Of a DNA stretch of 52,525 nt, positions 20,981 through 45,684 are shown piece after piece. A program made the position numbers and the translations under genes. Source of the DNA: Elusimicrobiota bacterium. GTDB taxonomy: Bacteria; Elusimicrobiota; Elusimicrobia; JACQJP01. Every line of letters starts with the position of its first letter. The stretch's first letter is position 1. The DNA lies in NCBI GenBank assembly GCA_016204975.1, contig JACQJP010000045.1, forward strand, positions 1 through 52,525, in the 5' to 3' direction. Below the pieces are notes generated by a model, which saw nothing but the letters and a program-made list of their open reading frames with translations, did not search any database and was not told the DNA's origin.

Positions 20981-21976
20981 ATGAGCAAAACCCTATGGAC
21001 GCTCTGGCTGGCCGGGACGGCCCTGTTTGTTTGGATGGTGCGGGAGATTGGATGGGGCGAGGTGATGGGTCTCGTCCAAACGGCGGGTTTTTGGATCGGT
21101 TTTTTTGCCCTCTTCTATGCCCTGGCCCAGAGCTGCTTTGTCGAGGCGTGGCGCCTGACCATACAGAATCCCACCCCCATCCCCTTTCGTTGGCTGTTTA
21201 GGGTCTATCTCGCCGGAGACGCCCTCAACATCCTAATCCCTTCCGGAAACCTGGCCGGGGAACCGGTCAAGGTCCGGCTTTTGACCCAACGCTTCCCCCA
21301 ATCCCATGCCACCGCCTCGGTCACCATCAACAAGTTTTCCGAGCTGGTGGCCATGACCCTCTTCATCGCCGCCGGGGTAGGCATCGGGATTCTATACTTG
21401 ACCCTGCCCGGCACCTTTCAAATCGCCTCCCTGATCACGCTCTTGGGCCTGGGAGGGCTTCTGGTGGCCGTCTTTCTCCGCCAAAAAAAAGGATTCTATG
21501 CCCCGCTGGCGGCATTTGCTCAGAAACTGGGAATCGGCAGGAAAAGCCTGGAGAAACGACTGCCCAGGATCCGGGAGATAGACCATGCCATCGGCAACTT
21601 CTACCAGAACCATCCCCTTAAATTTCTGGGTTCGCTTCTATTCAACTTCCTGGGCTGGATGGGAGGAGCGGTGGAGGTCTACTGGATCCTGCGCCTGTTG
21701 GACCTTCCCGCCTCTTGGTCCCATGCCCTGGCCATTGAGGCGCTGTCTCTGATCAGTTACAGCCTTCTGTTTTTCCTCCCCGCCCGCATCGGAGGGGGAG
21801 ACGGCAGCCGTGTGCTGATCTTCATCGCACTCGGCTTTTCCTCCGCGACCGGGCTGGCCTTCAGCATCATCCGCAGACTTCGGGAGATGATTTGGATCGG
21901 ACTGGGACTGCTCTCCCTGTTGACGCAGCACCTCAGGCCTACCAGAGCCCTACCCCAACCGGCGCGGCCACAATGA
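20981..21976 (+). CDS. flippase-like membrane protein (UPF0104/LPG synthase TM-domain family)
   Basis: The 331-residue protein has about eight hydrophobic helices and the family hallmarks: PTPIPFRWLFRVYLAGDALN, then LIPSGNLAGEPVKVRLL near the middle and FFLPARIGGGDGSR near the end. The family includes the membrane half of MprF and AglD-like proteins, often inferred to move lipid-linked intermediates across the membrane. No soluble synthase domain is present. Its stop overlaps the start of the triple-fusion gene (ATGA), so a role in exporting that pathway's product is a reasonable inference. Confidence 0.8.
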   Translation: MSKTLWTLWLAGTALFVWMVREIGWGEVMGLVQTAGFWIGFFALFYALAQSCFVEAWRLTIQNPTPIPFRWLFRVYLAGDALNILIPSGNLAGEPVKVRLLTQRFPQSHATASVTINKFSELVAMTLFIAAGVGIGILYLTLPGTFQIASLITLLGLGGLLVAVFLRQKKGFYAPLAAFAQKLGIGRKSLEKRLPRIREIDHAIGNFYQNHPLKFLGSLLFNFLGWMGGAVEVYWILRLLDLPASWSHALAIEALSLISYSLLFFLPARIGGGDGSRVLIFIALGFSSATGLAFSIIRRLREMIWIGLGLLSLLTQHLRPTRALPQPARPQ

Positions 21977-24381
21977 TCGCTAAAGACCGCACCCTCCGCA
22001 AAGCTCCGGGTACCGGCCGGGCCCCCACCGGGGGCCAGCGTGCCAGCACCCTCCGCGCCATCCTATTTGACTTTGGGGGGACCCTGGATGGTCCAGGGGT
22101 GGCGTGGCTGGACCGCTTCCTTCCCATCTACCGATCCCACGGAATCTCCGTGGACGCGGAAAACTTCCGGAAGGCCTTCTTCGAGGCGGATGACTGCCTC
22201 TCTCAACGCTACCCGTTGCGCCAAATGGGCTATCTGGAGACCCTGAAGGCCCAGGTAGAATCCGTGCTGAAAAACCTGGGATGCGAAAACCTTTCGCTGC
22301 AGGACTCCATCGCCGGAGAATTTTACCGGCAGGCCTATCGCACCATCCAGAAAAACATTCCCCTGCTCCAAGAACTCCGACGGAAATATCGCCTGGGAGT
22401 AATCTCCAACTTCTATGGCAATCTGGAAAACGTGCTGAAGGAAACGCAACTGATTTCTCTCTTGGATGTCTGGACCGATTCCTCCCTGGCCGGCTGCGAA
22501 AAGCCGGACCCCAGAATCTTCCAGGCCACTCTGGAGAAGCTCCAGCTTTCCCCCGCAGAAGCTCTCTTTGTGGGAGACTCCGTTTCCCGGGACATGGTGG
22601 GGGCCGCAAGGGCCGGGATGCCCCATGCGTGGCTCAGCCCATCTAAAAACCCCTGTCTGGAAGATATCTCTCCAACGAACTTTCCCTGTTGCCGACACCC
22701 GATCTTGGGCGCTCTGCAAGAGCTGCCCTCCCTCTTGGCCCCCAGCGTGCCGGCGGGAATCATCGCCGCCGGAACAGGGCAAAGGCTGAAGGCCCTCCGA
22801 GGAAACCTCCCCAAGGCCCTCTTTAAAATCCAAGGCAAACCCCTTCTGCACCACACCCTGGGGAACCTCCAAAGCGCCGGCATCCGCCGAGGCGTCTGCA
22901 TCCTGAACACCCAAGGCAAAGGGATGGACTCCGGGTTACAGATGGCATGGATTTTCCAGGACACCGCCTCCTCCTGGGAAAGCTTTCGAATCGTGGCGGA
23001 CCGTCTGGCGCAAATCTCCGAATCCTTCCTGGTGACCACCGTGGATGCCCTCTACCCCCCGCAGAAGTTGAAAGAATTTCTCCAGGCAGCTTCCAAAAAC
23101 TCCCACTGGGACGCCGGATTAGCCATCACCCCTTTTGTGGAGGATGAAAAACCCCTCTGGGCGGAAATCTCAGAAAAAGGTAGAATAGTCCGGCTGGGGT
23201 CCTCGGTTTCCAACTTTCGGTATGCCACCTGCGGCCTCTACTATCTTCGCAGCGCCTTCTGGAGGAGATTCCGGCAGGACCGGACCCCAAAAAAAAGCCT
23301 CCGTGAATTTTGGATCCAGTCCCTGAAACGGAAAGCCAGACTGGGCTCTTTTCTGATCGAAAAGGCGATTGACGTGGATCGGCCGGAGGATGTAAAAACG
23401 GCGGAGGAGTTTTTAAAATCCATGGCACGGCCCCCCAGTGGAATTGAAAAAATAGGAGAGCGGGTCCGATGCCTGGGCATCTATCGAGAACCCCTGCACT
23501 CCCCCAATCGGATTCCAGACGACGCCCTCATCCTGGAGTCGGTTCTCCAACACCTTCAGTCTCATGGCCTTCAAACCGAGGTGCAGCAGCCGCGGGTGCT
23601 GGACTCCCTGCGGGCCCGTGACTACGACCTAATTCTGCCGATGTGCGAGTCTCCGAGGGCCCTGGAAGAGCTCTTCCGCCTGCAAAATGAGGGCGCAAAG
23701 ATTCTCAATTCTCCCCAGTCCGTCTTAGCCTGCTACCGGACACAGATGGTCCCCCGGATGGAGCAGCTTTCCGAGGTTCTTTTTCCTCCCACTCGAATCT
23801 ATCCTGCAGACTCCTCGCAGCAATGCCTGCAGGAGGAACTGGCGGAGAACTCTTCTATCAAGATCGGATCCCTATGGATCAAGCGTGGGGACGTGCACAA
23901 CACCTGCGACCGAGACGTCGTCCGGCCCAGGAACTGGTCCGAGTGGGAGACGATCTCCCAAGATTTTCGCTCCCGGGGAATTGCCCAGGCGGTCTTTCAA
24001 AAGCACATCGAGGGAGACCTCTTGAAATTCTACGGGGTAGGGCCGGGCCGGTGGTTCTGCTGGTTCTACCATGATCCCGCCCGAGTCCGTCGCCATCCCT
24101 TCGCTCTCCCGGAGCTTCAAAAGAGCGTCACCGCCGCCGCGCAGGCCTTGCAGTTGGAAATCTTCGGAGGGGACGCCATCGTCACTCCCCATGGAGAGAT
24201 CTACCTGATTGATTTGAACAGCTGGCCCAGCTTCGCCAAATTCCGCGCCGAGGCTTCGGAAGAGATATCAAAATACATCCTCAGCTGCATCCCCAGACCC
24301 CGCCCCATCCCGACCGGCACCCTTCGCAGAGCTTCGGGTACCCGCCGGGGCCCCAGAGGGGCCCAGCGTGCATGGCGATGA
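21973..24381 (+). CDS. HAD phosphatase - nucleotidyltransferase - ATP-grasp triple fusion
   Basis: Three enzyme domains lie in one 802-residue chain. Residues about 30-240 are a HAD hydrolase (IFDF-type motif FDFGGTLD, motif IV VGDSVSRDMVGAA). Residues about 255-500 are a GlmU/IspD-like nucleotidyltransferase with intact IIAAGTGQRL and PKALFKIQGKPLL. From about 510 to the end is an ATP-grasp-like ligase (LILPMCESPRALEELF; KRGDVHNTCDRDVV; IFGGDAIVTP, EIYLIDLNSWPSF). The ATG at 21973 overlaps the preceding stop. Residues 7-25 or so and the last 21 residues are both encoded by copies of a palindromic repeat read in the same frame. The substrate is unknown; given Ino1 and a CDP-alcohol transferase downstream, CTP:inositol-phosphate cytidylyltransferase activity is a plausible inference for the middle domain. 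Confidence 0.82.
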   Translation: MIAKDRTLRKAPGTGRAPTGGQRASTLRAILFDFGGTLDGPGVAWLDRFLPIYRSHGISVDAENFRKAFFEADDCLSQRYPLRQMGYLETLKAQVESVLKNLGCENLSLQDSIAGEFYRQAYRTIQKNIPLLQELRRKYRLGVISNFYGNLENVLKETQLISLLDVWTDSSLAGCEKPDPRIFQATLEKLQLSPAEALFVGDSVSRDMVGAARAGMPHAWLSPSKNPCLEDISPTNFPCCRHPILGALQELPSLLAPSVPAGIIAAGTGQRLKALRGNLPKALFKIQGKPLLHHTLGNLQSAGIRRGVCILNTQGKGMDSGLQMAWIFQDTASSWESFRIVADRLAQISESFLVTTVDALYPPQKLKEFLQAASKNSHWDAGLAITPFVEDEKPLWAEISEKGRIVRLGSSVSNFRYATCGLYYLRSAFWRRFRQDRTPKKSLREFWIQSLKRKARLGSFLIEKAIDVDRPEDVKTAEEFLKSMARPPSGIEKIGERVRCLGIYREPLHSPNRIPDDALILESVLQHLQSHGLQTEVQQPRVLDSLRARDYDLILPMCESPRALEELFRLQNEGAKILNSPQSVLACYRTQMVPRMEQLSEVLFPPTRIYPADSSQQCLQEELAENSSIKIGSLWIKRGDVHNTCDRDVVRPRNWSEWETISQDFRSRGIAQAVFQKHIEGDLLKFYGVGPGRWFCWFYHDPARVRRHPFALPELQKSVTAAAQALQLEIFGGDAIVTPHGEIYLIDLNSWPSFAKFRAEASEEISKYILSCIPRPRPIPTGTLRRASGTRRGPRGAQRAWR
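21989..22043 (+). repeat. palindromic repeat copy A (translated, N-terminal)
   Basis: This 55-bp element lies inside the 5' end of the triple-fusion gene. It aligns without gaps to copy B with about eight substitutions. It contains a perfect 7-bp hairpin, GGCCCCC/GGGGGCC. It is translated as a peptide of the form TLR-K-APGTGRAPTGGQRA. Confidence 0.75.
24317..24371 (+). repeat. palindromic repeat copy B (translated, C-terminal)
   Basis: This 55-bp element spans the last codons of the triple fusion and ends just before the next start codon. The hairpin is GGGCCCC/GGGGCCC, with arms different from copy A but still perfectly paired. It is read in the same frame as copy A, giving TLRRASGTRRGPRGAQRA. 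Confidence 0.78.
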
Positions 24382-25748
24382 CCTCCCAGAGAACCCCCAT
24401 CTCCGACCCTTCCCGCACCCTCCCGCCCCAATTTCCCGGCCCACAGTCCCGCAGCCTGTTTGAGCAGGAACAAAAATACCTCGCCCCGGGCCTGCAAACA
24501 ATCGCCCTCTACTCGCAGCTCGCCTTGGAACGGGGCCAGGGGTGCCTCCTCTTCGACGCGGACGGACACTCCTACCTGGACTTTACCGCCGGAGTCGCCG
24601 TAGCCAGCCTGGGACACTCCCACCCCAGGTACGTCGCAGCCCTGGAGGAACAACTGGAAAAACTGACGGTCGGAAGCTACACCACGGATGTCCGAGCGCG
24701 GTTCGTCCAAAGACTGGCCACAGTCACCCCGCCGGGCCTGTCCCGAGTCCAACTCTATTCCTCCGGGGCAGAGGCGGTGGAGTCGGCCATTCGCCTGGCA
24801 AAATCCTACACCAAAAAATTTGAACTCATCGGATTCTGGGGAGGGTTTCATGGAAAGACAGGAGGAGTTTTAGGCCTTTTGGGAGACGATTTTAAAAAGG
24901 AGCTCGGACCCTGGGTGCCGGGAACCTATCTGGCTCCCTACCCCAACCCCTTCCGCTGCCCTCTGGGAACCCGAGGAGCGCATGACTGCGCTGGACACTG
25001 CGCGGAGTTTCTGGAGACCATCATTGAGAAAAGCACCTCCGGAAAAGTCGCGGCCATCCTCATCGAACCCATCCAAGGAACGGCCGGAAACGTGATCCCG
25101 GCGCCGGGCTTTCTCAAGCAGGTGCGGGAAATCGCCCGCTCCCACGATGCCCTCCTGATCGCCGATGAAATGATCACCGGCTTCGGACGAACCGGAAGAA
25201 TGTGGGGATGCGAGTGGGAGGGAGTCACCCCCGACATCCTCACCCTGGGGAAAGGCATGGCCAACGGATTTCCCGTCAGCGCCGTCCTCACCACCGAGGA
25301 GATCTCCCAGGCTGCGCCCTGGGCCAATCCCAGCGGCAGTTCCTCCAGCTACGGGGGAAACCCCTTGGCGGCAGCCGCTTGCCGCGTGACCCTGGAAATA
25401 ATCCTGGAGGAAAAGCTCCCTCAAAATGCCCAGGAGATTGGACACCAGCTCCTCCAACGCCTCCGAGGGCTCCAAGAAAAATACAGATTCATCGGGGAGG
25501 TGAGGGGACGCGGCCTTTTGATCGGGGTGGAGTTGGTGGAGGACCCCAAGACCCAAAAGCCCCTGCAAAAAAAAATCACAAGAGAAGTTTTTCAGGAATG
25601 CCTCCGCCGGGGGCTGCTGAGTATGTCCTACTCCCACATCCTCCGCATCAACCCCCCCTTGATCCTGACGCAGGAGGAGGCCGACCGCGGCCTGGAAATC
25701 TTAGACTCCGTCTTTTCAACCGTTGCCCAAAAGTTTCACCTGCAATGA
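24378..25748 (+). CDS. class III PLP-dependent aminotransferase
   Basis: This is a fold-type I aminotransferase of the GABA/ornithine/glutamate-semialdehyde class (456 residues from the ATG at 24378, which overlaps the previous stop as ATGA; an in-frame ATG at 24372 is possible). Landmarks are the ADEMITGFGRTG motif with the PLP-contacting Asp and the Schiff-base Lys at about 292 in LGKGMANGFPVSAV. The usual substrates carry a terminal amino group or aldehyde. Within this operon it may aminate the product of the neighbouring oxidoreductase; the true substrate is not readable. Confidence 0.9.
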   Translation: MTSQRTPISDPSRTLPPQFPGPQSRSLFEQEQKYLAPGLQTIALYSQLALERGQGCLLFDADGHSYLDFTAGVAVASLGHSHPRYVAALEEQLEKLTVGSYTTDVRARFVQRLATVTPPGLSRVQLYSSGAEAVESAIRLAKSYTKKFELIGFWGGFHGKTGGVLGLLGDDFKKELGPWVPGTYLAPYPNPFRCPLGTRGAHDCAGHCAEFLETIIEKSTSGKVAAILIEPIQGTAGNVIPAPGFLKQVREIARSHDALLIADEMITGFGRTGRMWGCEWEGVTPDILTLGKGMANGFPVSAVLTTEEISQAAPWANPSGSSSSYGGNPLAAAACRVTLEIILEEKLPQNAQEIGHQLLQRLRGLQEKYRFIGEVRGRGLLIGVELVEDPKTQKPLQKKITREVFQECLRRGLLSMSYSHILRINPPLILTQEEADRGLEILDSVFSTVAQKFHLQ

Positions 25749-26749
25749 GCACCTCCCTGCCGGCCTTACGGGGAGCCATCCTGGGCTTTGGCCAAGTGGC
25801 CGAGAAGGCTCACGCCGACGCCTGGCTCCAAACATCCCGCGTCCGGATCGTGGCCGTCTCGGATGTTCGTCAAGAACGTCTTCAGAAAGCCAAAAAATAC
25901 TTTTTAGAGGCCTCCCTGTATAACGATCCCCGAAGACTGTTCGAAAAGGAAACCCTGGATTTCGTAGACATCTGTACCCCTCCCCAAAGCCACGGCCCGC
26001 TGATCCTGGAGGCCCTGCGAAAAAAACTCCACGTGCTTTGCGAAAAACCCCTGACCCTGGACCCCAAGGAACTTCAGAAAATCACCCAACTCTGTGAAAA
26101 ACATCAAAAGAGCGTCTTCACCGTCCACAACTGGAAATACGCGCCCATCATCCAAAAGACGCGGGAGATACTGGACAAAAAGAGGATCGGCAAGGTCAAC
26201 TATATCGAGTTCCATACCCTCCGCAGCGCGCCCGCCTTCAGCGATGGACACTCCTCCAAAAATGCCTGGAGAAAACAACCCAGGATCGCCGGCGGAGGAA
26301 TCCTGGTGGACCACGGCTGGCACACCCTCTATCTGATCCAGACGCTGATGGAACAAAAACCCACCCGGATCACCTCCCGCCTGGAATACCTCGCTCCCCG
26401 CCTCGAACACACCGCGCGCTGTTGGTTGACCGGCAAAGGTTGGACCGGAAAGATCTTTTTGACCTGGAAGGCCTCGGAACGAAAAAATTGGGGGTTTCTG
26501 TTGGGAAGCAAGGGAAGCCTGGAGATCTGTGACGACCACCTGATCGTAAAAAACCAAAGCGGCCAGGCAGAGATATTCCGTTTCCCGCAAGCCCTCTCGG
26601 CCGGTTCCGCCCATCCCCAGTGGTTTGCCGCCATGCTTCCCAGTTTTTTTGAGGAGATGCGCGACCGAAAGTTCCGCTTTCAAAATCTCAAAGAGGCGAC
26701 CGCCTGTCTGAAACTCCTCAAAGAGGCCTACCAGAAAGCCAACAACTAG
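25745..26749 (+). CDS. Gfo/Idh/MocA-family NAD(P)-dependent oxidoreductase
   Basis: The 334-residue protein has an N-terminal Rossmann fold (GAILGFGQVAEKAHADAW), the family CEKPLTLD motif and the catalytic-region GGGILVDHGWHT. The family includes inositol 2-dehydrogenase and many sugar dehydrogenases, so oxidation of an inositol or sugar hydroxyl to a ketone fits the neighbourhood. The ATG at 25745 overlaps the aminotransferase stop (ATGA), and the stop overlaps the next GTG by one base. The frame is open far upstream, but that region lies over the aminotransferase and is not used. Confidence 0.88.
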   Translation: MSTSLPALRGAILGFGQVAEKAHADAWLQTSRVRIVAVSDVRQERLQKAKKYFLEASLYNDPRRLFEKETLDFVDICTPPQSHGPLILEALRKKLHVLCEKPLTLDPKELQKITQLCEKHQKSVFTVHNWKYAPIIQKTREILDKKRIGKVNYIEFHTLRSAPAFSDGHSSKNAWRKQPRIAGGGILVDHGWHTLYLIQTLMEQKPTRITSRLEYLAPRLEHTARCWLTGKGWTGKIFLTWKASERKNWGFLLGSKGSLEICDDHLIVKNQSGQAEIFRFPQALSAGSAHPQWFAAMLPSFFEEMRDRKFRFQNLKEATACLKLLKEAYQKANN

Positions 26750-27978
26750 TGCCATCCCCTCAAAAACCCGCCCTGCTGTTTCTGGAAGCCGTTCCGAAGA
26801 AGGCCCAATCTCTGGCCGGTCTGCCCTGGCTGGAGCGCATCCTCTTCCAAAGCTCCCGCGCGGCAATCCCGGAGCTGATTGTGACCGGTGAAGCTCCGGA
26901 GCTGCGCAGGCACCAAAAATCCAACCTCCGCTGCCCCTCCGGGCTCCGGCTCCACTGGATCTCTTCTGAAAACCCGAACGCCCCCAGCCAGATTCTATAC
27001 CTGTTGGGAAAGGAGTTCTGGCTGCTCTGCTCACAGACGCTGATCCGGCCCGCCTGGATGCAAGCTCTTCCCACGCCTGCGACCGCCCCTCTCCTGCAAA
27101 TCCTCACCCCCAGCTCTGTGCCCGCCGCCGCGTACCTCCGACTCAAATCCCCCACGCCGTTTGCCCAAGCCTGGAAAGCCGCCAAGGGAAACTTTAGCGC
27201 CCTGATGCGCCTTTTGCCCTCCTACCTGACGACCCAAAAAATCAGCGCCCCCGCCCAGGCGATTTTCCGGCTGCGCCTGGAATCCGAGACCGGCGCGGCG
27301 CAGCGCTGGCTCTTTCAAACCCTGATCAAAGAAAACGAGGGATTCATGTCCCGGCACCTGGAGCGCAAAATCTCTTTTCAGATCACCCAACAGCTTCTTA
27401 AAACTTCCCTCCGCCCCAATCAGGTGACCTGGGGCAGCATCCTCTTGGGAGCGACGGGGGGGCTCTTGCTGGCCACAGGCACCTTTGGGTGGAGCTTGGG
27501 CGGGGCTCTGCTTTTTTGGATCCACTCCATCGTAGACGGCTGCGACGGCGAGCTGGCCCGCCTGAAATACCTGGAGACCCCCCAGGGAGGGGCTCTGGAT
27601 TTTTGGGGGGACAATGTCGTCCATGCGGCGGTCTTTGCCGGAACGGGAATCGGCCTGTTTCGGCAAACCCAGCAGATGACATTCCTCCTGCTGTCCGCCT
27701 CAGCTTCCCTCTTTGTGATCCTCACCGCCCACTGGGTGTTTCGCAAAGAAGGCCCGCAATTTACAGGAATCCATTGTGCCTCCAAACTTCAAGACCGCTT
27801 GGCCCAAAGGGACTTCATCTATGTTTTTCTCCTTTTGGCGGCTTTGGGACGCCTGCCCTGGTTTCTGTGGGCCGCCGCCATCGGCACGCCTTGTTTCTAT
27901 TTCCTTCTCCGGGTGCCGGCGCCTTGGAAATTTGCTATGCTGAAGGGATGCCGCAAAAGTTTCTCTCTTTTTTTCTAA
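26749..27978 (+). CDS. CDP-alcohol phosphatidyltransferase with degenerate N-terminal nucleotidyltransferase domain
   Basis: The C-terminal half (about 215-409) is a membrane CDP-alcohol phosphotransferase with the complete motif D-x2-DG-x2-AR-x8-G-x3-D-x3-D (from DGCDGELAR to DFWGD), which transfers a phospho-alcohol from a CDP carrier. The N-terminal 200 residues look like a decayed NTP-transferase: AGLPWLERILFQSSRAAIPE and ELIVTGEAPEL fit the fold, but the GxGxR and PK signatures are missing. The same two-domain order is found in the bifunctional inositol-1-phosphate cytidylyltransferase/DIPP synthase of hyperthermophiles. It starts with GTG, overlapping the upstream stop by one base. Confidence 0.85.
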   Translation: MPSPQKPALLFLEAVPKKAQSLAGLPWLERILFQSSRAAIPELIVTGEAPELRRHQKSNLRCPSGLRLHWISSENPNAPSQILYLLGKEFWLLCSQTLIRPAWMQALPTPATAPLLQILTPSSVPAAAYLRLKSPTPFAQAWKAAKGNFSALMRLLPSYLTTQKISAPAQAIFRLRLESETGAAQRWLFQTLIKENEGFMSRHLERKISFQITQQLLKTSLRPNQVTWGSILLGATGGLLLATGTFGWSLGGALLFWIHSIVDGCDGELARLKYLETPQGGALDFWGDNVVHAAVFAGTGIGLFRQTQQMTFLLLSASASLFVILTAHWVFRKEGPQFTGIHCASKLQDRLAQRDFIYVFLLLAALGRLPWFLWAAAIGTPCFYFLLRVPAPWKFAMLKGCRKSFSLFF

Positions 27979-29744
27979 GCCTCATTCTGCTTTGGCCCCA
28001 CCCTGCCTTCGCGAAAACCTCGACCCTCCGGAGAGGCCCAATGGAAGCGGGGCGCCTCTCGGTCCGGCCCCTCGCCGCCCCTTCCTTTTCCTTCGGAATT
28101 GGGGGAAATCCGGTGCTTCTCTTCATGGATTACGTCCTCTCCCTGCAGGACCCGCCCTTGTCCCCTCTACACAGCCAGGCAGAGCGGAAGGGTGCGCCCG
28201 AATCGTTTGCTTCTGAAGAGTTCGAACCTTCCCGGGAAGTTTTAAAGGACTTTCGCCTGCAGCAAGAAAAATCTCCTTCCGCATCGAAACGCCAATCCTC
28301 CGTCCCCGAGCTCCGCGAGGGGGCTGTGGAGGGCGCCAAAATTCCGGAGTCTCCCCAGGAGCTGATCGAGCTGTACCGAACCGCCCAAAAAAAATCCGAG
28401 GAGTCTCCGCGGATTCTCCCCAGGCTCCGCGACTACCCGGCACAGGCTCCCTTCCTTAAGGAGATGGTCCGCCTGGCCGATATCGAGAGGTTGGAGCCGG
28501 CAAACCGCCGCCTCCTGCAACAGACCATCGGGCAAGACCACCCGACCTCCCAGACCCCGCGCGTTCCAACCGCCCACCGCATCCTCCACGCGCGGGATGC
28601 CCTCGCCGCCTCCATTCCCGTTCTAAAACCCCCGCCCCTTTACAATCTTCCCTGGGCTGCTCTCCCAAAGCCGCCATACCTGCGTCAAGAGTTGCGACAA
28701 ACGATCGGCACCATCCTGACCCACACCCTCCTCCAACCTCAGAAGAACCTGACCCGCTCCGTTTCCGAGCCCTCCGCACAAAAGAAGGAGCTGGCGCACC
28801 GCCTGCTCCAGCGTCTCCTCCAGTTCCAACAGACCTCTTCGGAAATGCCTCCCATCACCCTCAATCTACCCATCCTGACCTTTCTAGGCAACCTCTACTC
28901 GACCGTGGAGGAAATCCATCTCACATACGGCGAGCGTCCGGAGACGGACCTGCCCCAGATGGTGCAAAGGTACCAAACCCTGGGGAACAGACTCCTCCAG
29001 GTTGCGCAACGCCTCCCACAAGCTCGACCGGAAGCCGAGACGATCCTGCAGGAACTCCAGAGAGAGATGGCCCGACACATCGTGCCTCCCCGCAAGGAAC
29101 AACTGGCCCAACTCCTCTCTTCCTCTTACCTTCAGACCGTCCTTGGGGCCCTGACCGCCACCATCCTGTTCCTCCTGGCCCCCACCATGCCCAGCGGCGG
29201 CTCAGAGCTTCTGGCCTGGGCCTACGGGCTGGCCGCCTTCCCGCGCGCCCCAGCACAGAGTCCGGAGGTTCCCTTTCCATTTCTCCAGGAACTCAAGAGG
29301 GCCAAGCAGGTCGCCCGGCGGGAACTCTTCACCGATCTTCTGATCCTGACCGAGGCCCAAGCAGAGCTCCTTGGAACCCAGTGGCGCTGGAACTTCTTTA
29401 CCTTTCAGGCTCCCGCAGAAACCAAACAGATTCGAGTGGAGCCCTCCGGCTCCAAGGTTTCCATCGCCCTGGCGCCCGTCCCGACGCCTCGACCGGAGGT
29501 CGAACCCGCTTTCGATGCCCGCGCCATTTTCCAAAACTCCCGGGCCCTCAGCCGGGAACAAAGTTGGGACTTTAGCCCACAATCCCTCACCATTCGGTTG
29601 AACTCCGAGGGTCTCTATGAAATCCGCCTGGAAGAAAGTCCGCTCAACTATCACGTCTTCGCCCTGGAGGGGCAATTCCTAAGAGGAGGACGCGTGGAAA
29701 AAGATCTGCGCTCCGCCCTCAACAGCTTGGAAGCCGCTCCATGA
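27948..29744 (+). CDS. secreted protein of unknown function in the inositol-type operon
   Basis: I do not recognise this family. From the ATG at 27948 (31-bp overlap with the preceding gene) the 598-residue product has a clear signal peptide, MPQKFLSFFLSLILLWPHPAFA. The remainder is Gln-, Leu- and Pro-rich and mostly helical. One further hydrophobic stretch is near residue 400 (VLGALTATILFLLAPTMP), followed by a more beta-like C-terminal region (about 470-598). It may be periplasmic and anchored. Its position between the CDP-alcohol transferase and Ino1 suggests a role in handling the product. An ATG overlapping its stop (29741) opens a ten-codon ORF of doubtful meaning. Confidence 0.65.
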   Translation: MPQKFLSFFLSLILLWPHPAFAKTSTLRRGPMEAGRLSVRPLAAPSFSFGIGGNPVLLFMDYVLSLQDPPLSPLHSQAERKGAPESFASEEFEPSREVLKDFRLQQEKSPSASKRQSSVPELREGAVEGAKIPESPQELIELYRTAQKKSEESPRILPRLRDYPAQAPFLKEMVRLADIERLEPANRRLLQQTIGQDHPTSQTPRVPTAHRILHARDALAASIPVLKPPPLYNLPWAALPKPPYLRQELRQTIGTILTHTLLQPQKNLTRSVSEPSAQKKELAHRLLQRLLQFQQTSSEMPPITLNLPILTFLGNLYSTVEEIHLTYGERPETDLPQMVQRYQTLGNRLLQVAQRLPQARPEAETILQELQREMARHIVPPRKEQLAQLLSSSYLQTVLGALTATILFLLAPTMPSGGSELLAWAYGLAAFPRAPAQSPEVPFPFLQELKRAKQVARRELFTDLLILTEAQAELLGTQWRWNFFTFQAPAETKQIRVEPSGSKVSIALAPVPTPRPEVEPAFDARAIFQNSRALSREQSWDFSPQSLTIRLNSEGLYEIRLEESPLNYHVFALEGQFLRGGRVEKDLRSALNSLEAAP

Positions 29745-29797: not shown

Positions 29798-31186
29798 GTG
29801 ACCCAAAGCCTGCGTGACATCCCACCCCCTTCCGGAAAACTGGGAGTTCTCCTTGCGGGTATGGGGGCGGTCACCAGCACCTTTCTGGCCGGCGTGGCCT
29901 TGGTCAAAAAAGGAATTGGACGCCCCTTCGGCTCCTTGAGCCAGCTTCAAACCATCCGCTTGGGAAAGCGCTACGAAGGCCGAAATCCCCTGATCAAGGA
30001 TTTCATCCCTCTGGCGGAGCTTTCGGACCTGGTCTTCGGAGGCTGGGACGCCCTGGGCCGCAACCTCTACGAAACCGCGCTCCAGGCGGGGGTCCTTCCG
30101 GAAAATATGCTCCAGCATGTTCGAGGGGAACTGGAGGGGGTCCTTCCCTGGAAGGCCGTCTTCGACCGGCAGTACGTCCGGAACCTCAATGGGACCTTCG
30201 TCAAAGAGATTCCCAACAAGATGAAGCAGGCGCAAGCCCTGATCCAAGACATCGAGCGCTTCAAAAAAGAACAGGGACTTAAAAGACTGGTGATCCTTTG
30301 GTGCGCCTCCACCGAAATCCACCTGGAGCGCTCCCCGGTCCACGAGAGCTTGGGCGCCTTCGAGAAGGGGCTGGAGGAAAACTCCCCGGAGATCCCGCCC
30401 TCCATGATCTACGCCTACGCCGCCCTTCAGACCAAAACCCCCTATGCCAACGGTGCCCCCAACCTGGGCGCGCACATCCCGGCCCTGTGGGAGCTGGCGG
30501 AGAAAAACAAGGTGCCCATCGCCGGGCGGGATTTTAAAACCGGGCAAACCATGATGAAGACCCTGGTGGCCCCGGGGCTGAAGATGCGGATGCTGGGACT
30601 CCACGGCTGGTACTCCACCAACATCCTGGGCAACTTAGACGGCGAGGTCCTGGCCGACCCCCTCTCCTTCCGCGCCAAGGAGAAATCCAAAATCTCGGTC
30701 CTGGACACCATCCTGGAACCCAAAATGTATCCGGAGCTCTACGGAGAGTACTGCCACAAGGTGCGCATTGACTACTATCCCCCCAGGGGAGACGCCAAGG
30801 AAGGTTGGGACAATATCGATCTGTTCGGCTGGCTGGGGCTGCCCATGCAGATCAAGATCAACTTCCTGTGCCGGGACAGCATCCTGGCCGCCCCCATCGT
30901 CTTGGACCTGGCCCTCTTTTTGGACTTGGCCCGGCGCGCCGGGCTTTCCGGAATCCAGGAATGGCTCTCCTTTTACTTCAAATCCCCCATGTGCCGGCCG
31001 GACCTGGAACCCGAGCACGACCTCTTCATCCAGCATTTAAAACTCAAAAACACCTTGAGGCTACTCATGGGAGAGGAGGTCTTAGACCACTCCGGCCTGG
31101 ACTACTACGAGGAGCTTCCCCCCGGAGCCGGCACCGCCCCACCCGCCCAACTCCTGAACAAAGCCACCCCCTTTCAAACCTCCTAG
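29798..31186 (+). CDS. ino1: myo-inositol-1-phosphate synthase
   Basis: This NAD-dependent enzyme isomerises glucose-6-phosphate to 1L-myo-inositol-1-phosphate, the committed step of inositol synthesis. The 462-residue protein has the family features VLLAGMGAVTSTFLAGV (NAD site), LVILWCASTEIH, PYANGAPN, GRDFKTGQT and the catalytic region GWYSTNILGNLDGEVL. It starts at GTG 29798 with GGGAGA 8 bp upstream and 53 bp after the previous stop. It is the strongest clue that the operon makes an inositol compound. It is convergent with the thioredoxin/TPR gene, 32 bp away. Confidence 0.92.
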   Translation: MTQSLRDIPPPSGKLGVLLAGMGAVTSTFLAGVALVKKGIGRPFGSLSQLQTIRLGKRYEGRNPLIKDFIPLAELSDLVFGGWDALGRNLYETALQAGVLPENMLQHVRGELEGVLPWKAVFDRQYVRNLNGTFVKEIPNKMKQAQALIQDIERFKKEQGLKRLVILWCASTEIHLERSPVHESLGAFEKGLEENSPEIPPSMIYAYAALQTKTPYANGAPNLGAHIPALWELAEKNKVPIAGRDFKTGQTMMKTLVAPGLKMRMLGLHGWYSTNILGNLDGEVLADPLSFRAKEKSKISVLDTILEPKMYPELYGEYCHKVRIDYYPPRGDAKEGWDNIDLFGWLGLPMQIKINFLCRDSILAAPIVLDLALFLDLARRAGLSGIQEWLSFYFKSPMCRPDLEPEHDLFIQHLKLKNTLRLLMGEEVLDHSGLDYYEELPPGAGTAPPAQLLNKATPFQTS

Positions 31187-41219: not shown

Positions 41220-41313
41220 GCACGCTGGGAGCCTCTGGCTCCCCGCCTGATACTCGTAGCTCTGCGGAGAGTGCTGGGCACCCGGCGGGTACCCGAAGCT
41301 CTGCGAAGGGTGC
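41220..41313 (-). repeat. palindromic repeat, copies C1 and C2
   Basis: Two head-to-tail copies of the 55-bp element lie in the opposite orientation to A and B. C1 (41220-41274) is full length; its hairpin arms read GGGAGCC/GGCTCCC on the - strand, again altered yet paired. C2 (41281-41313) is a 33-bp partial copy identical to the first 33 bp of copy B. Confidence 0.75.
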
Positions 41314-44682: not shown

Positions 44683-45588
44683 TTATTCTCTCAGTAAACT
44701 CCTGAAAACAAAAGCGACGTTCTCTTTCCGCTCTCGGAGGCGGCGGTAAAAATAGGAAAACCAGTGCGTCCCATAAGGGACATACATCCGGAAGCGGTAT
44801 CCCCGCCGCACCAACTCCTTTCCCAAACTCACCCTAAGGCCATAGAGCATCTGCAACTCAAAAGACGCCTTGGCAATGGAGCGCTGCCGAGCAAAGTCAA
44901 TTGCGTTCCAGATGCGCTCCTCATCGTGGGTGGCCAGGGCCGACTGGTTGCCCTGCTCCAGGAGCCTCCGAGCTAATAGATCGAAATTCCGGCTCACCTC
45001 CTCCCGGCTCTGGCAGGCAATCTCCGGAGATTCCCGGTAAGCCCCCTTGCACAAGCGGACCCGGGCCCCCAGCCGGTTGAGCCTCTCGATATCCTCCTGG
45101 CTGCGATGGAGATAGGCTTGGATTACCGCCCCTACGTTCTTGTAGCGCTCAAACAAGCGATAAAAAATATCCAGAGTCTTCTGGGTGTAGGCGGAGCCCT
45201 CCATGTCGATGCGTACGAAGTTGTCGGTGGCTTGGGCTTCTCTGACGATTTCCTCCAGATTCTGCCGGCAAAAATCCTCCTCAACGGATAAACCCAACTG
45301 GGTGAGCTTCAGTGAGATATTGGCATCCACCTCCGCCTCCGCGATCTTATGCAGCAGCCGTTTATACTCCTGTGTCGCCTGCGTGGCCTGACGCCTTTCC
45401 CGAACCTCCTCCCCCAAAAAATCCAGGGTGGCGGCGATTCCTTCCCCATTGAGTCTCCGACAGACCTTCACCGCCTCCTGGCAGGTCTTCCCGGCCACAA
45501 AACGCCTGGCCAAAAAGGTAAAAAAAGACATATTTACCGAGTCACGCGAGATAAAATGTACCACTTTCCGCAAAGCTCGGTCTAGCAC
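44683..45588 (-). CDS. proline dehydrogenase (monofunctional)
   Basis: This FAD-dependent TIM-barrel enzyme oxidises proline to pyrroline-5-carboxylate. The 301-residue protein has ISLKLTQLGLS, FVRIDMEGSAYT, AVIQAYLHRSQEDI, RLCKGAYRE and MLYGLR, all family landmarks. P5C dehydrogenase is not adjacent. The GTG at 45588 lies in a palindromic repeat and gives the helical N-terminus usual in the family; an ATG at 45531 would give 282 residues. It begins the - strand amino-acid catabolic operon with tdh and kbl. Confidence 0.9.
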   Translation of the reverse strand: MLDRALRKVVHFISRDSVNMSFFTFLARRFVAGKTCQEAVKVCRRLNGEGIAATLDFLGEEVRERRQATQATQEYKRLLHKIAEAEVDANISLKLTQLGLSVEEDFCRQNLEEIVREAQATDNFVRIDMEGSAYTQKTLDIFYRLFERYKNVGAVIQAYLHRSQEDIERLNRLGARVRLCKGAYRESPEIACQSREEVSRNFDLLARRLLEQGNQSALATHDEERIWNAIDFARQRSIAKASFELQMLYGLRVSLGKELVRRGYRFRMYVPYGTHWFSYFYRRLRERKENVAFVFRSLLRE

Positions 45589-45684
45589 CCTACGCAGAGC
45601 TCGTCACGCCCCACTGGGGCTTCCTACGCCCCTGGCCTCTGGCCGGGGGTCGGGTACCAGCCGGGCGCCCAGAGGGCACCAACG
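45567..45684 (+). repeat. palindromic repeat, copy D (rearranged)
   Basis: It contains a partial copy (CCGCAAAGCTCGG), then GCACCCTACGCAGAGCTCG and, after an unrelated insert with its own short hairpin (CCCCACTGGGG), the distal part (CGGGTACCAGCCGGGCGCCCAGAGG). It overlaps the start of the proline dehydrogenase gene. Confidence 0.6.

Follow-up and report, generated by a model that had tools for sequence, protein, structure and literature searches.

A HAD, nucleotidyltransferase and ATP-grasp gene fusion within a conserved cluster predicted to build an inositol-derived headgroup

In Bacteroides vulgatus and Prevotella an "alternative inositol lipid cluster" has been reported, for which a Kennedy-like route joining CDP-inositol to diacylglycerol was proposed, and phosphoinositol dihydroceramide (PI-DHC) was detected by high-performance liquid chromatography-mass spectrometry in B. 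vulgatus and P. veroralis (PMC9246714). Here we analysed a 52,525-nucleotide stretch from an Elusimicrobiota bacterium (contig JACQJP010000045.1; hereafter the window), which holds a variant of this published, partly assigned cluster. The window adds a class III aminotransferase and a Gfo/Idh/MocA dehydrogenase, and fuses three genes into one open reading frame (ORF) for HAD, nucleotidyltransferase (NTP) and ATP-grasp domains. Shared between the two clusters are the nucleotidyltransferase (BVU_RS13095 in B. vulgatus), the HAD protein (RS13115), the CDP-alcohol phosphotransferase (RS13105) and a myo-inositol-phosphate synthase (MIPS), and the B. vulgatus/Prevotella cluster likewise has a lysylphosphatidylglycerol-synthase-like membrane protein. 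Our proposal is that the fusion ORF stems from a conserved cluster whose enzymes would follow a Kennedy-type route to a phosphodiester headgroup derived from inositol, the ATP-grasp domain serving as a kinase; every reaction in it is predicted, and we give the whole slightly less than an even chance.

Three other described systems resemble parts of the locus. The IPCT/DIPPS enzyme of Thermococcales, which acts in CDP-inositol and di-myo-inositol phosphate synthesis, ranks first among the curated models for the cluster's phosphotransferase and, within the inositol-type ones, for the NTP domain, with scores far below the curated cut-offs in both cases; in the window, in contrast, the active nucleotidyltransferase is fused to HAD and ATP-grasp domains, and the copy linked to the phosphotransferase is degenerate. 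The plant inositol tris/tetrakisphosphate kinase ITPK4 (PMC7614388) has a HAD-like domain followed by an ATP-grasp domain, as in the fusion ORF; however, it has no nucleotidyltransferase, and its HAD domain is capless and without catalytic motifs, whereas that of the window keeps them. ITPK4 is the best or second-best PDB sequence match of our ATP-grasp profiles and a DLNxxPSF end is common to both proteins, the similarity being limited to the C-terminal third of the ATP-grasp domain. Finally, the front end of the hygromycin A pathway (Hyg18, Hyg25, Hyg17 and Hyg8; PMC10949010) leads from glucose 6-phosphate to an inosamine through a MIPS, a phosphatase, a PF01408 dehydrogenase and an aminotransferase, as proposed here, but the steps quoted from that source include neither CTP activation nor a CDP-alcohol phosphotransferase, and the likeness drawn here is one of enzyme types. 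All four types of this aminocyclitol gene set are present in the window, the aminotransferase being of class III and its substrate predicted.

The fusion ORF and its domains are the following:

21973–24381, forward strand: fusion ORF HAD – nucleotidyltransferase – ATP-grasp, 802 aa, no internal stop
22054–22638, forward strand: HAD-IA domain (aa 28–222), motifs DxGGT(L/I)D, SNFYGN, KP and GD....D
22750–23427, forward strand: nucleotidyltransferase (NTP) domain (aa 260–485), motif GxGxR...K
23464–24288, forward strand: ATP-grasp domain (aa 498–772), motifs KRGDxH....DV, GDL(V/L)KFYG, GGDAI and (I)DxNxWPSF

An initial annotation, made from the letters of the DNA, had proposed these three domains in this order, and it is borne out by Pfam for the first two and by an AlphaFold2 model with fold comparison for the third; all the motifs that it quoted are present in the ORF. 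The HAD domain matched Pfam PF00702 (E = 4.4e-16; 60.3 bits, cut-off 26.4; aa 28–215) and, at 43.5 bits against a cut-off of 23.3, NCBIfam TIGR01549, which places it in HAD family IA. From aa 263 the NTP domain matched PF12804 (4.9e-8) and PF00483 (2e-6), both above the Pfam cut-off. The C-terminal third had no Pfam match above cut-off; a Pfam LMWPc match (0.03–0.09) and beta-lactamase rows among its PDB matches were judged to be chance. The AlphaFold2 model of the ATP-grasp domain, built from 59 sequences (pLDDT 93.8, pTM 0.90), superimposed over the whole domain on ArgX (Z 22.1, 252 residues, 2.8 Å), RimK (Z 21.6), LysX (Z 21.3) and ITPK1 (Z 19.9), with Z about 20 to many further ATP-grasp structures. 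On the strength of this model we are confident that the C-terminal third has the ATP-grasp fold, as the annotation had anticipated. In a full-length model of the fusion the HAD and ATP-grasp domains are predicted confidently and the NTP domain, for which there were few rows, with moderate confidence, while the tails are disordered.

We compared these domains with relatives from the same class, Elusimicrobia, from a second phylum, to which the record Deltaproteobacteria bacterium BP6.bin67 led us, and from Bacteroidales. An alignment of 71 HAD rows from all three sources shows little or no variation in the motifs DxGGTxD, SNFYGN, KP and GD....D; these proteins are therefore one family. The motif FDFGGTLD, quoted in the initial annotation as diagnostic, is indeed present, but the second Asp of motif I (DxD) that is usual in HAD phosphatases is replaced by a Gly that is invariant throughout the alignment, which weighs against a role in phosphate removal. 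HAD phosphatases with Gly at this position are known. Of the inositol-type curated models, inositol IPCT/DIPPS (NF041135) comes closest to the NTP domain (2.7e-10, far below cut-off); it is also the domain's best match among curated models that contain a nucleotidyltransferase, and the phosphotransferase too has it as its top curated hit. In the PDB the top nucleotidyltransferase match of the NTP domain is 4jd0. The domain resembles an inositol-1-phosphate cytidylyltransferase, and by this similarity we predict specificity for CTP and an inositol phosphate.

The fusion ORF lies among genes with related predicted functions:

20981–21976, forward strand: FLIP, flippase-like membrane protein (LPG_synthase_TM / HpnL-like; Pfam PF03706 3.5e-33; NCBIfam HpnL 7.2e-46, under cut-off)
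24372–25748, forward strand: AMT, class III aminotransferase (Pfam PF00202 1.3e-107)
25745–26749, forward strand: GFO, Gfo/Idh/MocA dehydrogenase, inositol-dehydrogenase-like (PF01408 1.8e-24; best NCBIfam match iolG 5e-22, under cut-off)
26749–27978, forward strand: CDPPT, CDP-alcohol phosphotransferase (PF01066 1.6e-9); N-terminal domain nucleotidyltransferase-like but degenerate
27948–29744, forward strand: 598-aa protein of no family with a signal-peptide-like start, between CDPPT and MIPS
29798–31186, forward strand: MIPS, myo-inositol-phosphate synthase (PF07994 8.3e-94; PF01658 1.9e-30)

Stop and start codons overlap at three places in the window: between FLIP and the fusion ORF (ATGA), between the fusion ORF and AMT, which starts at ATG 24372 or 24378, and between AMT and GFO. 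The ATP-grasp is present in 66 of the 235 genomes of the class, the window's own included, and we collected 66 other class loci from 65 genomes, one of which has two. The gene order in the class is HAD-NTP-ATPgrasp-AMT-GFO-CDPPT-MIPS. In the 43 class loci of at least 10 kb, the genes found near the ATP-grasp are AMT (43), GFO (42), NTP (41), HAD (39), CDPPT (36), MIPS (34) and FLIP (1). The second phylum, in which 15 of 247 genomes carry the ATP-grasp, has the same order, usually without MIPS; its 16 loci, one of which (L139) is the same place as locus L031, contain AMT (15), HAD (13), NTP (13), CDPPT (13), GFO (11), FLIP (8) and MIPS (3, weak matches). Adjacent FLIP homologues occur in 8/16 loci of the second phylum and 2/4 of Bacteroidales, as against 1/66 of the other class loci, and one second-phylum locus, L136, keeps the window's order from FLIP through CDPPT. 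This cluster is conserved and not previously characterised; its product is probably a headgroup of inositol or amino-inositol linked through phosphate. One genome, whose fuller cluster is in L144, has a second ATP-grasp copy in locus L133 (3436–6441), its companions there being a Gfo/Idh gene and a distant MIPS-like gene.

CDPPT belongs to its family by score (PF01066, 38.7 bits, cut-off 22) and by the motif DxxDGxxAR...GxxxDxxxD, conserved in 62 rows; its best NCBIfam match is IPCT/DIPPS (1.8e-19, below cut-off), and its PDB matches are AF2299 and an IPCT/DIPPS enzyme. When its N-terminal part (26749–27333) was aligned with the NTP profile, hhalign returned 89.9%, against 0.1% for a MIPS control; this part looks like that of an IPCT/DIPPS-type enzyme that has lost its first activity. 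In GFO, whose best curated match is inositol 2-dehydrogenase (below cut-off), K101, D189 and H193 are invariant in 61 rows, and in AMT K294 is invariant in 71. The 598-aa protein matched no Pfam or NCBIfam family, and a tblastn search of 67 other loci did not find it again.

These genes can be arranged in a pathway of seven steps. MIPS would convert glucose 6-phosphate to inositol 3-phosphate (step 1), the HAD domain would remove the phosphate (step 2), GFO would oxidise the ring to an inosose (step 3) and AMT would turn the inosose into an inosamine (step 4). The ATP-grasp domain, as a kinase, would then place a phosphate on another ring position (step 5), the NTP domain would activate the product with CTP to a CDP-derivative (step 6), and CDPPT would attach the phospho-(amino)inositol to an acceptor alcohol, which may be a lipid (step 7); FLIP may carry the product across the membrane. 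Together the HAD domain and the kinase would shift the phosphate to a new ring position, in either order. The first four predicted steps mirror, by analogy, the proposed aminocyclitol pathway of hygromycin A (PMC10949010). With no dehydrogenase or aminotransferase, the core found in Bacteroidales would produce plain inositol lipids. The last three steps presumably resemble choline kinase, cytidylyltransferase and cholinephosphotransferase. The fusion would unite steps 2, 5 and 6, not three consecutive steps. The initial annotation had read it as consecutive steps on one substrate; that the three domains belong to one pathway is supported, because their separate genes adjoin in relatives, but the consecutive order is not, as the dehydrogenase and the aminotransferase would act in between.

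When 72,556 plasmid records were searched by tblastn with the ATP-grasp, four matched, all from Bacteroidales, at 30–33% identity over 96–98% of the length. In the three annotated records the ATP-grasp gene, labelled "hypothetical protein", has an NDP-sugar synthase on one side and a CDP-alcohol phosphatidyltransferase on the other, and it adjoins the NTP gene as in the class clusters; all three also have a HAD hydrolase, and two an inositol-3-phosphate synthase. The three ATP-grasp proteins scanned had no Pfam match above cut-off. Searched by tblastn with the window proteins, the four records matched HAD (4/4), NTP (4/4), MIPS (3/4) and, weakly, CDPPT (4/4 at E 1e-3, 1/4 at 1e-6), and none matched AMT or GFO (0/4). 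The arrangement agrees with that published as the alternative inositol lipid cluster (PMC9246714), and MIPS with NTP, a CDP-alcohol phosphotransferase and HAD nearby is likewise found in the window and the class loci. Neither "ATP-grasp" nor "BVU_RS13100" occurs in the main text of that paper; from the order of the locus tags and from the relatives we infer that BVU_RS13100 is the ATP-grasp gene.

The strongest competitor of the proposed kinase is a ligase, which would couple an amino acid or other acid either to the aminocyclitol or, once complete, to the headgroup, and leave the roles of HAD, NTP and phosphotransferase unchanged; we consider it a serious rival but the less likely of the two, and several results speak for it and against the kinase. 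The strongest curated similarity is to the RimK/MptN alpha-L-glutamate ligases: among 39 members, the NCBIfam RimK family matched 26 (best 1.1e-9) and MptN 29 (best 5.3e-8). ArgX, RimK and LysX rank slightly above ITPK in fold comparison, and the aminotransferase would supply an amine acceptor. Pfam is undecided, since in 59 members RimK (20 matches, best 6e-4) and YheC/D (14 matches, best 9e-5) are about equal to ITPK (26 matches, best 8.4e-4) and the best single E-value belongs to YheC/D. The wider sequence profile, from which L139, L148 (partial) and, for size, 39 further class rows were omitted, gives a tie between the ligase PsnB (3.7e-5) and ITPK4 (4.3e-5). PF05770, the ITPK family, did not reach its gathering score, was not listed for the window domain and had no match anywhere in the same genome. 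Moreover, known ITPKs accept inositol 3-phosphate and not free inositol (PMC8024741), so that the ATP-grasp, if a kinase, may act before the HAD domain. Assigning a function from the fold alone was abandoned, as ATP-grasp ligases and kinases lie within about 3 Z units of each other.

Other evidence favours the kinase. The best PDB matches of a class-only ATP-grasp profile are plant ITPK4 (0.0013) and human ITPK1 (0.012). An ATP-grasp alignment took in 58 of 64 stretches and that of the window, leaving out L093, L100, L102, L106, L112 and L118. In the wider profile two active-site positions, the invariant Lys of GDLVKFY and the DxN Asp, line up with their counterparts in ITPK4; ITPK1 has the Asp too, and E. 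coli RimK has R and E at these two places. ITPKs carry a substrate-binding His/Lys and a DxN metal site, to which the two positions may correspond. When the family is aligned with E. coli RimK, the features of the latter, namely the Gly-rich loop, the Arg of DIR, the HRGG loop and the Glu of EVN, are replaced, and the window domain scores only 10.6 bits with MptN, far from its cut-off of 350, with no RimK match listed. The strongest argument is that Bacteroidales keep the ATP-grasp gene in clusters devoid of an aminotransferase, and that the product reported for these has no amino-acid group (PMC9246714). The dephosphorylation, nucleotide activation and ligation suggested in the initial annotation are supported only in part, ligation being at best as likely as phosphorylation. 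Taken by its similarities the domain could be either enzyme; we favour the kinase as the likelier, with somewhat under twice the weight of the ligase.

With the ATP-grasp domain read as a kinase, a bolder version of the proposal is that an unrecognised bacterial Kennedy pathway puts CDP-activated amino-inositol on a membrane lipid, and that a new ITPK-like family of ATP-grasp kinases, which would also be the missing enzyme of the Bacteroidales inositol lipid cluster, re-positions the phosphate made by MIPS; this is possible, but we hold it as tentative and less likely than not. Our reading of the cluster offers a testable role for an unassigned gene beside the inositol-lipid genes of gut Bacteroidales; it also predicts that bacteria of two or more phyla make a phospholipid or phosphodiester with amino-inositol. 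Should the ATP-grasp prove to be an inositol kinase, this fold would have kinases of inositol compounds in bacteria as well as in eukaryotes and archaea. Among the papers listed in literature searches, no title or abstract shown describes the cluster, a phospholipid of inosamine or a fusion of the three domains.

It is also conceivable, although unlikely, that no aminocyclitol is made, and that the class III enzyme, as a racemase or aminotransferase, acts on another amine or amino acid to supply a second part of the headgroup, such as an amino alcohol, with the inositol phosphate unchanged. The nearest solved relatives of AMT are amino-acid racemases (archaeal alanine/serine) and GABA-type aminotransferases. 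The inosose aminotransferases known so far are mostly of another fold class. These observations weigh against the main proposal, as do the second-phylum loci, in which AMT stands without nearby GFO in 5/16 and MIPS is near in 3/16 with weak matches; a phosphoinositol lipid or any other product of these organisms is itself a prediction. However, GFO is near AMT in 42 of the 43 long class loci, and its invariant K/D/H residues and best curated match, given above, argue for a dehydrogenase acting on inositol.

The fusion itself is peculiar to this genome. Relatives mostly keep HAD, NTP and ATP-grasp as three adjacent separate genes: the triple fusion was found in none of the 55 class loci in which both junctions were readable, HAD and NTP are fused in 4/55 (L033, L072, L076 and L078), NTP and ATP-grasp in 1/60 (L087), and none of these fusions occurs in the 13 readable loci of the second phylum. 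A conserved triple-fusion architecture is thereby ruled out. No second genome of the window's own family was among the search listings. In-frame starts persist at both junctions (GTG 22747 and ATG 23422). As read from sequence, the fusion is a local merger of three neighbouring cluster genes; it is a new architecture of modest weight, seen in a single genome, and, not being conserved, it tells little about channelling. That two stop codons lost by sequencing error have joined three normal genes is very improbable, since it needs two independent errors and pairwise fusions exist elsewhere in the class, even though the fusion is known from one 55-contig draft genome of 86.9% completeness and the surviving starts would fit such an artefact.

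Both tails of the fused protein are supplied by a structured, covarying dispersed repeat of about 55–60 bases, with these copies in the window:

21989–22043, forward strand: repeat copy 1, the in-frame N-terminal tail of the fusion ORF
24317–24371, forward strand: repeat copy 2, the in-frame C-terminal tail, 85% identical to copy 1
41281–41313 (reverse strand) and 45585–45676: further copies of the dispersed repeat

Residues about 1–24 and 783–802 of the fusion are mainly translated copies of this repeat, not enzyme, and are predicted to be disordered. Rfam had no family for the repeat in the 2,551 bases searched. A search of the 1.5 Mb genome with either tail copy gave 41 matches, the query among them, and 49 distinct copies were extracted from the window and loci L149–L208 of that genome. 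RNAalifold gave a consensus for these copies in which 497 of 536 pair cells are standard, compared with a mean of 428 and a maximum of 445 in 500 shuffles, a statistic that ignores the kinship of the copies. In the resulting hairpin 7 of the 11 pairs show at least two Watson-Crick types, that is, compensatory changes between copies.

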